Assembly: GCA_016783825.1 (NCBI GenBank)
Contig: JADHVV010000005.1
Location: forward strand, 1 to 56,834
Source: Candidatus Zhuqueibacterota bacterium
GTDB lineage: Bacteria > Zhuqueibacterota > Zhuqueibacteria > Thermofontimicrobiales > Thermofontimicrobiaceae
DNA: 56,834 nucleotides
Reading direction: 5' to 3'
Shown: piece after piece, positions 43,622 to 48,315 of the stretch
Layout: every line of letters begins with the position of its first letter
Numbering within the stretch: position 1 is the first letter of the stretch
Made by a program: the position numbers and the translations under genes
The notes under the pieces: generated by a model
What the model saw: only the letters and a program-made list of their open reading frames with translations
Told to the model about the DNA's origin: nothing
Databases searched by the model: none

Positions 43622-43940
43622 ATATTCGTTAAGGGTTAAAATGTAACAATCATCTAAAATATTTCTTTTGACTGTTATTATCTGTTACCATAAATGCATG
43701 GCGCAAAGAGCATGGCGCATGGCGTAAAATATGCGTTTAGCACCATGCTCTATGCGCCTTGCTTTTCTTGACAGGCCTCTTTACTTAAGAAAAGGAATGT
43801 TTTATATGTTACAAAATAAACCTCAACGAGTATAATATCAAATTATCTGAATCTTTTTATTTTATACTACATCTAATTGATTTGAATTTAAAAACCTTTT
43901 TTTTATAAACTGGAACAATTAATTTCGGAGACTTTTATCA

Positions 43941-44177
43941 GTGAAACATTTTAAGAAAATTGCAGTTGTTGTAATAGGCGCAGCATTAGGATTTGCGTAC
44001 TATCGATTTGTTGGCTGCCAGTCCGGAGTTTGTCCGTTAACAAGCAATCCCTGGATAAGCACCGGTTATGGCGCATTAATTGGTTTTGTTTTTACCATTA
44101 ACGGTAAACAGAAGGAACAAACTCTTAACGGAAAACAGGGCGAGCAAAAAAACGATCAGGAAAAGGAGAGTAATTAA
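43941..44177 (+). CDS. Small membrane protein (DUF6132-like)
   Basis: IAVVVIGAALGFAYYRFVGCQSGVCPLTSNPWISTGYGALIGFVF; CxxxxC after the first TM; GTG start. Confidence 0.65.
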   Translation: MKHFKKIAVVVIGAALGFAYYRFVGCQSGVCPLTSNPWISTGYGALIGFVFTINGKQKEQTLNGKQGEQKNDQEKESN

Positions 44178-44342
44178 ATGGACTTTTGGGAAATAATCAT
44201 ATTTTTCGCTGCTTATTTTGTTGTAATGAAATATATCCTGCCCAAAATGGGTATGCCAACCTGAATGTCCACATCATGCGACCTTCCGGGTGAAAGTCAA
44301 AAAAAATCTGAAACTGAAATTATCGAAAATAAAAATGAATAA
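44178..44342 (+). CDS. Candidate selenoprotein (in-frame TGA at 44262-44264), single TM
   Basis: MDFWEIIIFFAAYFVVMKYILPKMGMPT-(TGA)-MSTSCDLPGESQKKSETEIIENKNE*. TGA is followed by hairpin GAC-C-TTC-[CGGGT]-GAA-A-GTC with a GG-containing loop about 22 nt downstream. Confidence 0.45.
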
Positions 44343-44475: not shown

Positions 44476-44679
44476 ATGCCGATTTATGAATACCGTTGTA
44501 ACAAATGTGATCACAAGTTTGAAATGTTTCAAAGTATTGGCGCATCAAATGAATCATTGAATTGCCCAAACTGTAATGAACCAAAACCCGATAGAATTTT
44601 TTCTGTTTTTGGTTCTGCCAGTGGTGGTGATTCAGCATTCAGTGGTGGTGGATGCAGCCCATCCAGCCCATTTTCGTGA
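44476..44679 (+). CDS. FmdB-family zinc-ribbon protein
   Basis: MPIYEYRCNKCDHKFEMFQSIGASNESLNCPNCNEPKPDRIFSVFG, Ser/Gly tail. Confidence 0.92.
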   Translation: MPIYEYRCNKCDHKFEMFQSIGASNESLNCPNCNEPKPDRIFSVFGSASGGDSAFSGGGCSPSSPFS

Positions 44680-44887: not shown

Positions 44888-45475
44888 ATGAAAAAATTAT
44901 CAACTATGTTTTTAATATTAGCAATCGTCTTTGTCTGGGGCTGTTCGGGTACTGATAGTGAATCAATCGCTCAGGACAGTAAAGAGAAGAAAGTTGAGAA
45001 AGCGCATGAAGAAGTAGTTTGGACAACTTTTGATGAAGGTCTGGCAAAAGGCGTCAAAGAGAATAAAAATATCATTGTGGATTTCTACACCGATTGGTGT
45101 CACTGGTGTAAAGTGATGGATGAAAAAACATTCGGTGAGAAAAAAGTAGCTGCCAAATTAAAAGAAAGATTTGCCACTGTTCGGCTTAATGCTGAAAGTA
45201 ACAGTGAGTTTGCAAATTATAAAGGAAAGAAATATTCAAACATGGAGTTGACAAGAGCTTTCCAGGTTACAGGATTTCCTTCTTTAGCATTTCTCAGCCC
45301 TGAAAAAGAAATCATTACTGTTATTCCCGGCTACGTTCCGGCAGATCAATTTTATCATATTCTCGACTTCATTGATAAAGAATGCTATAAAAAGAAAATG
45401 ACGCTTGAAGAATTCATCAAGAAAAAAGGTGAATGCGAAGAATCTAAAAAAGAAGAGTCAAAGAATGAGAAATAA
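44888..45475 (+). CDS. Thioredoxin-fold lipoprotein (DsbD C-domain-like)
   Basis: Lipobox VWGCSG; VDFYTDWCHWCKVMDEKTFGEKKVAAKLKERFATVRLNAE. Confidence 0.9.
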   Translation: MKKLSTMFLILAIVFVWGCSGTDSESIAQDSKEKKVEKAHEEVVWTTFDEGLAKGVKENKNIIVDFYTDWCHWCKVMDEKTFGEKKVAAKLKERFATVRLNAESNSEFANYKGKKYSNMELTRAFQVTGFPSLAFLSPEKEIITVIPGYVPADQFYHILDFIDKECYKKKMTLEEFIKKKGECEESKKEESKNEK

Positions 45476-45963: not shown

Positions 45964-48315
45964 ATGGAAAACAAATACACATTAGATTCTATCGTTGAAA
46001 AAACGATACTTGAAAAAACAGGGCAACAAGCTATTTACCCGGCTCACGAAAAAATCCCGGTTATTATTGTAGAAAATTTTCCCACATTAGGAAAATTCAC
46101 AGCGATTCGTTTTATTGAGTGGGTACAAAAAAATCCCGATGGCGTTATTTCCTTGCCTACAGGTAAAACACCGGAACATTTCATCAAGTGGGTTCGACAC
46201 TACATTAGAAACTGGAATAAAACAGAAACTAAAAAAGACCTTGAATCCTGGGGAATTGATCCATCGAAAAAACCGGAAATGAATAAATTGCATTTTGTCC
46301 AAATCGATGAATTCTATCCCATCAATCCGCTGCAAAACAACAGCTTCTACCATTACATCAATCGTTTTTATATTAAGGGATTTGGACTAGACAAAAATAA
46401 AGCGCTATTGATCAATGCGTATCGAATTGGGGTGCCAAAAGAGATGGATCCCCAGCAAGTGTTCCCGGATGACAAGATTGATCTTAGCCTCAGAACAAGA
46501 CAGCCAAATAACAAAATAGAAAGAATTCAAAAAAAAGTTATTGAAGATGTTGATCAATATTGTACCGAATATGAAAACAGAATTCGGGATTTGGGAGGAA
46601 TTGGTTTTTTCCTCGGTGGAATAGGACCCGATGGACATATCGCTTTTAACATCAAAGGCTCTGACCATTATTCAACAACCCGCCTCATGCCTACAAACTA
46701 TGAAACCCAGGCAGCCGCGGCTTCTGACATGGGTGGAATTGAGGTTGCACGAAACAGACTGGTGATAACCATTGGATTGAGTACCATTGTTCATAATAAA
46801 GAAGCCGTTACAATCATTATCGCATCAGGCGAAGCAAAAGCAAAAATTGTTGCCCAGGCAGTGGAAAATGAAGATAACAATCTTTACCCGGCAACTGTGC
46901 TTCAATCGTTGGAAAACTCCCGATTCTACATAACACAAGGCGCGGCAAAACATTTGGTGGAAAGACGCTTCCACGCATTGACTACGAAAGAGCAGATAAG
47001 TGACCAGGATATTGAGCGAGTTGTCACAAACCTTTCATTGCTTATTAATATTCCAATCAACAGCTTGAGCGATAAAAATTTCAAGGATAATAAATTTGGG
47101 AACGAGATTCTATTAAAAACCGAAAAATCATCAGCGGTTTTAAAAAAGGAAGTGGAAAAATCTATTCTCGCTAAAATAGAAGATGGGCTGCAACCTGTTG
47201 AAGGAAAAATTTTCCTGCACACTGCGCCCCATCATGATGACATCATGTTAGGTTTTTGGCCCTACATGGTTCACCTGGTTAGAGATCCCAAAAACAGCCA
47301 CTATTTCAATTACATGACCAGTGGATTCACTGCTGTCACCAATAAACATGTGCTTGACTTATTGGTAACTCTGAAGCATCTCGTTGATACTCCAAAATTC
47401 CACAAATTAATGGGAAGAAATTATTTTGATCCTGACGCTGAAATGGGCAAAAATAGAGATGTGTATCATTATCTCGATGGCATTGCGGCACATAGTCGTT
47501 CAATAAAAGAAGAAGCTGAAAGCAGACGTTTACTCCGAAACCTTATTTCTATTTTTGAAGAAGACAGCCTTGACCATCTGAAAGATCGTGTTAGCGAAAT
47601 GATCAACTACTTCAAAACACAATATCCCGGAAAAAAAGATATTCAGTATATTCAAGATTTAAAAGGAATGATTCGTGAATGGGAAGCTGATTTACTGTGG
47701 GCTTACCTGGGATTCAACTGTTCCAATGTTAAGCATTTACGGTTAGGATTTTACAAAGGTGAAATTTTTACAGAAGAGCCGGATATAAATCGCGATGTAC
47801 CACCAATATTAGAAATGATTGAAAAAATCCGTCCTAACATTGTAACAGTTGCACTTGACCCGGAAGGCAGCGGCCCTGACACCCATTACAAAGTAATGCA
47901 AGCTATTAGCGAAGCATTGAGAATTTATCAAAAGAAAAATAAAAGAAAAGATATCGAAGTATGGGGTTACAGAAATGTTTGGTTTCGTTTTCATCCATCT
48001 GAAGTAACTACGGCTGTTCCGGTCTCATTGAATTCCTATGCCAGCCTGGAATATGCGTTTATGAATTGTTTCGGTTCACAACGTGCTGCTTCATTCCCCA
48101 GTTATGAAATGGATGGACCTTTTTCAAGGTTAGCGCAGCAAATAATGGTAGAACAGTATCAGAATATTAAAACATGCCTTGGCAGGGAATATTTATTTAA
48201 CCACGATCATCCGCGCTTACGGGCAGCACGTGGATTTAATTTTCTCAAAAAAATGTCGTTGGATGAGTTTTTTGAGCATTCAATGGAGTTGAAGAAATCT
48301 ACGGAGAATAGATGA
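45964..48315 (+). CDS. Fusion: glucosamine-6-phosphate deaminase-like domain + PIG-L (LmbE) deacetylase-like domain
   Basis: NagB motifs VISLPTGKTPEHFIKW, FVQIDEFYPI, FFLGGIGPDGHIAFNIKGS; PIG-L motif FLHTAPHHDDIMLGFWP and later GSGPDTHYK. Confidence 0.88.
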   Translation: MENKYTLDSIVEKTILEKTGQQAIYPAHEKIPVIIVENFPTLGKFTAIRFIEWVQKNPDGVISLPTGKTPEHFIKWVRHYIRNWNKTETKKDLESWGIDPSKKPEMNKLHFVQIDEFYPINPLQNNSFYHYINRFYIKGFGLDKNKALLINAYRIGVPKEMDPQQVFPDDKIDLSLRTRQPNNKIERIQKKVIEDVDQYCTEYENRIRDLGGIGFFLGGIGPDGHIAFNIKGSDHYSTTRLMPTNYETQAAAASDMGGIEVARNRLVITIGLSTIVHNKEAVTIIIASGEAKAKIVAQAVENEDNNLYPATVLQSLENSRFYITQGAAKHLVERRFHALTTKEQISDQDIERVVTNLSLLINIPINSLSDKNFKDNKFGNEILLKTEKSSAVLKKEVEKSILAKIEDGLQPVEGKIFLHTAPHHDDIMLGFWPYMVHLVRDPKNSHYFNYMTSGFTAVTNKHVLDLLVTLKHLVDTPKFHKLMGRNYFDPDAEMGKNRDVYHYLDGIAAHSRSIKEEAESRRLLRNLISIFEEDSLDHLKDRVSEMINYFKTQYPGKKDIQYIQDLKGMIREWEADLLWAYLGFNCSNVKHLRLGFYKGEIFTEEPDINRDVPPILEMIEKIRPNIVTVALDPEGSGPDTHYKVMQAISEALRIYQKKNKRKDIEVWGYRNVWFRFHPSEVTTAVPVSLNSYASLEYAFMNCFGSQRAASFPSYEMDGPFSRLAQQIMVEQYQNIKTCLGREYLFNHDHPRLRAARGFNFLKKMSLDEFFEHSMELKKSTENR

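Follow-up and report, generated by a model that had tools for sequence, protein, structure and literature searches.

Does a TGA that interrupts a very short reading frame in a Candidatus Zhuqueibacterota genome end translation, or is it read as selenocysteine (Sec), and what would the resulting peptide then do? In the window, the 56,834-nucleotide stretch of contig JADHVV010000005.1 analysed here, this frame encodes a membrane segment, meets the TGA and stays open to a TAA. The initial annotation took it for a candidate small selenoprotein; on re-reading, the positions it gave for the open reading frame, the TGA, the tail, the stop and a downstream hairpin were all correct, and the neighbours it named as DUF6132-like, FmdB and thioredoxin-fold lipoprotein genes are borne out by matches to PF19628, TIGR02605 and PF13098 (Table 1). 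All lie on the plus strand in the order DUF6132, selenoprotein frame, FmdB, thioredoxin-fold lipoprotein, with the ATG of the frame at 44178 abutting the TAA of the DUF6132 gene and its own TAA at 44340-44342. As a whole, the locus is probably best explained by a new bacterial selenoprotein family in which the UGA is translated and the product acts as a membrane-tethered redox partner.

Table 1. Features of the selenoprotein locus, in coordinates of the window
Feature	Position	Strand	Remarks
DUF6132 gene	43941..44177	+	PF19628, 45.4 bits; two predicted TM helices, GCQSGVCPLTSNPW between helices
Shine-Dalgarno-like AAGGAG	44163..44168	+	9 nt upstream of ATG; read in sequence
Putative selenoprotein gene	44178..44342	+	54 codons plus TAA: MDFWEIIIFFAAYFVVMKYILPKMGMPT-U-MSTSCDLPGESQKKSETEIIENKNE
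Predicted transmembrane helix, residues 3-23	44184..44246	+	AlphaFold2; hydrophobic core, conserved positive charges on the C-terminal side
UGA, predicted Sec codon, residue 29	44262..44264	+	TGA in 93/95 distinct sequences; Cys in two intact sense-codon homologues
Cys34 codon	44277..44279	+	Putative resolving/partner Cys of U-x4-C; Cys at +5 in 79/93, at +4 or +6 in 12 more
Candidate SECIS hairpin GACCTTC [CGGGT] GAAAGTC	44280..44298	+	Register, GG loop and compensatory pairs conserved across phyla
Arms and loop of the hairpin	Arms 44280-44286 and 44292-44298; loop CGGGT 44287-44291	+	One C.A mismatch; loop start 22 nt past TGA
Geobacter counterpart of the SECIS hairpin			GACCTCGGGGACCGAGGT
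FmdB-family zinc-ribbon gene	44476..44679	+	TIGR02605, 61.3 bits; conserved neighbour
Thioredoxin-fold lipoprotein gene (WCHWC)	44888..45475	+	PF13098, 66.4 bits; neighbour kept in nearest relatives

A reading frame conserved across the UGA

Named genomes were scanned with the peptide pattern [RK][YF][VI]LP[KR][LM]G[VI]P, which stops short of the Sec position and so has no bias towards TGA; TGA nevertheless occupied the Sec column in 69 of 69 confirmed loci. These come from candidate division KSB1, Calditrichaeota, Geobacter argillaceus, Geobacter sp. OR-1, Trichlorobacter lovleyi, other Desulfuromonadales and a Desulfovibrionaceae, with further titles from Acidobacteria, Blastocatellia, Anaerolineae/Chloroflexi, Latescibacterota, Eisenbacteria, Krumholzibacteriota, Zipacnadia, Neomarinimicrobiota and Thermodesulfovibrionia. 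When 60 relatives were searched in tblastn fashion, most proved to contain this frame, in almost every case broken by a single TGA. The translations share a layout of transmembrane helix, LP[KR]LG[VI]PT, U and MSx[SA]C, followed by a charged tail, and the two distinct sequences without TGA carry one TGC and one TAA. Finding the TGA in the same column of 93 distinct sequences goes far beyond chance.

The family is matched in 116 of 141 genomes (about 82%) of the order of Geobacter argillaceus and in 58 of 247 sampled genomes of the phylum of an acidobacterial member, 53 of these with TGA. Two copies of the Sec gene each occur in the Geobacter-order genomes G346, G347, G366, G411, G423, G432, G439, G442 and G449.

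The tail frame proposed past the TGA holds up in this set: a conserved tail follows the TGA in the 93 sequences, intact homologues continue beyond it, and the conservation spans about eight residues. Exactly one tail Cys is present in 92 of the 93, mostly at +5 from U (Table 1), and the transmembrane region holds none. Two members (L111 and L112) have no nearby tail Cys, so the U-x4-C motif is not absolutely required. In a Geobacter-like set, codon positions 1, 2 and 3 differ in 0.30, 0.19 and 0.35 of comparisons over codons 1-8 after the UGA, and in 0.10, 0.19 and 0.55 over codons 9-14. Position 3 is the most divergent and position 2 less so in both stretches, which is a coding pattern; the third position in codons 1-8 is held back by the SECIS element.

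Replacement of the TGA by Cys, a check put forward with the original proposal, does occur and is rare. Both intact sense-codon homologues have Cys at the Sec position: L037 (CMSGHC), the one Cys form among the 95 sequences, lies in a genome with both SelB and tRNA-Sec, and L147 (TCMSGACKVP, with the motif CMSGAC), an additional homologue read directly, in a genome without SelB above the cut-off. Among the homologues collected, none has Gly, Trp or Arg in this column, and among the 95 distinct sequences TAG is absent and TAA occurs once, as against final stop codons of TAA in 35, TAG in 32 and TGA in 26 family genes. The single TAA (L174, genome G008, minus strand, near position 1013; LPALGIPT*MNPDACRVPP) lies in a genome with SelB and tRNA-Sec; gene decay, UAA recoding or an error in sequencing may account for it. 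Close to the Cys form of G045 lie genes for an HgcA-like protein with an NVWCAAGK motif and an HgcB-like ferredoxin, which correspond to the mercury-methylation pair (L176, 7697-9052, minus strand); the HgcA motif was found in no other locus fetched.

Selenocysteine machinery and the SECIS hairpin

No Sec machinery is visible in the window, as the initial annotation had remarked, and it is present elsewhere in the same genome (4.54 Mb in 260 contigs, 83% complete). There, selA (576 bits) adjoins selB (371 bits), and tRNA-Sec (selC) with anticodon TCA scores 63.5 bits and is confirmed by ARAGORN. The genome (G000) also has two selD genes, at C97:4758-5678 and C258:11487-12413; one of the pair has an in-frame TGA in AGUAAK, and the other lies within a 766-residue open frame, possibly a fusion.

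Of 16 named carriers, drawn from several phyla, 15 have a SelB match above the curated cut-off. Matches of about 190 bits to the SelB model that covered residues 1-264 were taken as EF-Tu and set aside. In the acidobacterial sample, 50 of 53 gene carriers have SelB versus 116 of 194 non-carriers (Fisher p = 3e-7, with phylogeny left uncorrected), and this sample is cleaner than that of the KSB1 phylum, in which the association (p = 4e-4) is confounded by relatedness and incomplete assemblies. SelB is apparently absent from the carriers G018, G215, G224 and G339, which may reflect assembly gaps or decayed genes. G018 holds a TGA member (C24:121632-121775); its genome is rated 100% complete, and searches there for SelB and tRNA-Sec found neither. 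The congener G013 has SelB, and a recent loss of the Sec trait is possible.

Published criteria for bacterial SECIS elements call for a hairpin 16-37 nt after the UGA, a G among the two leading nucleotides of the loop, and a minimum free energy of -7.5 or lower (PMC13188914). All of them are satisfied by 74 of the 93 sequences, almost always with the loop 22-24 nt after the UGA. For the hairpin first described in the window, the position, the C.A mismatch, the loop and the distance range stand, whereas the energy, about -3.3 kcal/mol when the structure is enforced, misses the limit, so that the family largely passes SECIS prediction and the window's own copy does not. Single-sequence folding does not prefer this hairpin either (z-score +0.43), and the argument was therefore moved to covariation: weak alone, the element becomes convincing as a SECIS once relatives are compared.

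At least six of the seven stem pairs form in 72 of the 93 sequences at nearby centres, 58 of the 72 being centred 24 nt after the UGA; resampling of synonymous codons drawn from the family itself gave 25.6 +/- 4.0, with a maximum of 38 over 200 trials. Each of the stem positions from nt 17/33 to nt 22/28 shows several compensating pair types, for example GC in 39, CG in 30 and TA in 3 sequences at nt 22/28, and CG in 43, GC in 25, TA in 4 and AT in 3 at nt 19/31. The G at loop nt 24 is retained in 74 of 79. In L097, L101, L105 and L106, which have one codon fewer between U and C, the hairpin is shifted by exactly three nucleotides, to centre 21. Covariation and register shift together are the signature of a SECIS selected independently of the protein sequence.

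With TGA conservation, Cys exchange, Sec machinery and a covarying hairpin all in its support, the proposed small selenoprotein is almost certainly a real one, on strong comparative evidence. SelB and tRNA-Sec would translate through the UGA at 44262, directed by the hairpin at 44280-44298, to give the 54-residue protein. The opposite view, that the UGA is an ordinary stop behind a 28-residue membrane peptide and the hairpin an untranslated regulatory element, is compatible with any single sequence alone and with the weakness of the window's hairpin, but retains almost no probability and is already refuted comparatively by the in-frame amino-acid conservation past the UGA across phyla, the coding substitution pattern, the Cys homologues and the codons that the site lacks.

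A predicted membrane anchor and the possible role of the U-x4-C pair

AlphaFold2 predicts a helix at residues 3-23 with a pLDDT of about 90 and low-confidence coil afterwards; the protein is thus very probably anchored in the membrane by an N-terminal transmembrane helix, and its charged tail is probably disordered. The 12 residues before U hold a mean of 1.94 K/R and no D/E, so that by the positive-inside rule the tail and Sec should be cytoplasmic, an orientation we consider likely. The LP[KR]LGVPT segment would then hold Sec against the cytoplasmic face of the membrane, where the charged tail begins. Searches of PDB, Pfam, NCBIfam (June 2026) and PHROGs returned no family or structure match to the protein, nor did a tblastn search of plasmids. 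Pfam matches to YMF19, CitMHS and Arabinose_trans were weak, below curated cut-offs where shown, and reflect the transmembrane helix. With 54 residues, one helix plus coil and no thioredoxin match, the protein does not have a thioredoxin fold with UxxC or CxxU.

The only Cys of the protein sits five residues past Sec, and the U-x4-C pair would most likely alternate between a selenol/thiol state and an intramolecular selenenylsulfide. We infer that the most economical reading is a membrane-tethered selenenylsulfide/selenol redox partner. In the window, this partner would belong to a small thiol-redox module with DUF6132, FmdB and the thioredoxin-fold lipoprotein, and elsewhere to one with CcdA/TlpA, rhodanese, DUF302, OsmC or FAD disulfide-reductase-type genes. 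The motif and the neighbouring genes leave the thiol-redox role about evenly poised.

FmdB-type genes are found in about 27 of 70 relative loci, among them records of Eisenbacteria, Krumholzibacteriota and Chloroflexi, and mostly lie 2-23 nt downstream; DUF6132 is found in 20 of the 70 (KSB1 plus one Neomarinimicrobiota); the full order of DUF6132, Sec gene, FmdB and thioredoxin is repeated in L047, L048, L052 and L074. Other loci have DUF302, OsmC, flavin disulfide-reductase-like, cytochrome c554-type, TlpA, DsbD/CcdA, rhodanese and ArsR genes as neighbours, an apparent richness in redox genes that is given as raw counts. Neighbourhoods differ between phyla and no neighbour gene is universal, so the function has to be inferred. 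FmdB and DUF6132 were themselves considered as selenoproteins and rejected: read-through models place TGA only at or after the gene ends, and DUF6132 always has Cys. A selenoprotein form of FmdB with UxxU has already been catalogued.

The initial annotation had also drawn a parallel between U-x4-C and the C-x4-C of DUF6132. The shared spacing is real; to judge by the positive-inside rule, though, the motifs are probably on opposite membrane faces. Together they could make up a minimal relay of selenol and thiol across the membrane, passing reducing equivalents from the cytoplasm to thioredoxin-type proteins on the extracytoplasmic side, a highly speculative arrangement that, if true, would be a simpler alternative to DsbD/CcdA.

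Handling of persulfides or of soft metals is the main rival to the thiol-redox role. In the first case, the membrane would be the site at which the protein deals with reactive forms of sulfur or selenium (persulfide, polysulfide, selenide), its partners being DUF302, rhodanese, OsmC, CoA-disulfide-reductase-like proteins and TauE. DUF302 occurs in 5 loci from at least two lineages, OsmC in 2, rhodanese in 3 and a Pyr_redox disulfide-reductase-like gene in 4 KSB1 loci, and TauE adjoins L063; yet each of these genes is absent from most loci and none is adjacent in the window, which leaves this explanation possible but doubtful.

A role as a soft-metal or metalloid ligand seems unlikely; here the Sec-Cys pair would bind Hg, As, Sb, Cu or a similar element and exchange it with a transporter or reductase. 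Most carriers are likely anaerobes or metal reducers, and ArsR-type regulators, RND-efflux-like genes, FeoB and flavin disulfide oxidoreductases lie near members from Geobacter relatives and Acidobacteria. Small membrane Cys-pair proteins of the MerT kind also exist, including a catalogued Sec form (PMC13188914). However, no metal gene is constant as a neighbour, the protein is homologous neither to MerT nor to a Pfam family that binds metals, and the KSB1 cassette of DUF6132, FmdB and thioredoxin points to thiols.

Relation to known selenoproteins

One of the closest likenesses to the thiol-redox partner proposed here in overall layout is eukaryotic. SELENOK and SELENOS have a single transmembrane helix on the N-terminal side and a cytosolic C-terminal part with Sec, which in SELENOS forms a selenenylsulfide with a nearby Cys. 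The resemblance is one of analogy and not of membership: their Sec lies near the very C-terminus, their SECIS is of the eukaryotic type in the 3' UTR, they are located in the ER, and no PDB-chain or Pfam match connects them to the new family.

Among prokaryotic proteins, TsoB (NF045694) is rhodanese/DsbD fusion-like and combines a U-x4-U motif with thiol-redox domains (PMC13188914), but it is a multi-domain protein of several hundred residues, and the new protein has no match to NF045694; the window's thioredoxin lipoprotein does match the TsoB C-terminal domain at 50 bits. The Sec form of MerT (PF02411) is likewise a small membrane protein with a Sec/Cys pair, whereas its motif is C/SxxU, its fold family is different, and a PF02411 match is absent from the new protein. 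DUF6132 (PF19628), the neighbour in KSB1, is also a small membrane protein with C-x4-C beside a transmembrane helix; it differs in having two helices and a Cys pair predicted on the outer face, is never a Sec protein in its 20 loci and shows no detectable homology.

A 2026 review lists 119 prokaryotic selenoprotein families (PMC13188914), none of which has the single-helix U-x4-C architecture, some entries having been compared by description only. Earlier Geobacter lists, which give eight selenoproteins for G. sulfurreducens, do not contain the family (PMC1794560, 2006), and a deep-learning scan with deep-Sep that included G. sulfurreducens PL reported none new (PMC12013277, 2025); the Geobacter carriers named here are G. 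argillaceus and Geobacter sp. OR-1. Motif strings retrieved only unrelated text matches from the open-access literature. Within the scope of the open-access literature, the family is absent from the selenoprotein catalogues checked and is in that sense new.

It likely escaped earlier searches because Cys homologues are nearly absent and the reading frame before the UGA is too short for annotation; standard gene finders would cut the protein short at the apparent stop codon. In nearly all selenoproteins, Cys forms outnumber the Sec form (PMC13188914), and the near-exclusive retention of Sec in this family is unusual, making it a short and tractable test of the advantage of selenium over sulfur. 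It also suggests that further tiny membrane selenoproteins stand unannotated in genomes.

Two other features of the window may be recorded. Upstream of the DUF6132 gene, positions 43692-43766 hold an inverted repeat whose 27-nt arms are imperfectly matched (85% complementary); two of its stretches, 13-16 nt long, occur once each within the window. Downstream, a long open reading frame at 45964-48315 combines, as judged by eye, a glucosamine-6-phosphate-deaminase-like and a PIG-L/LmbE-like part.
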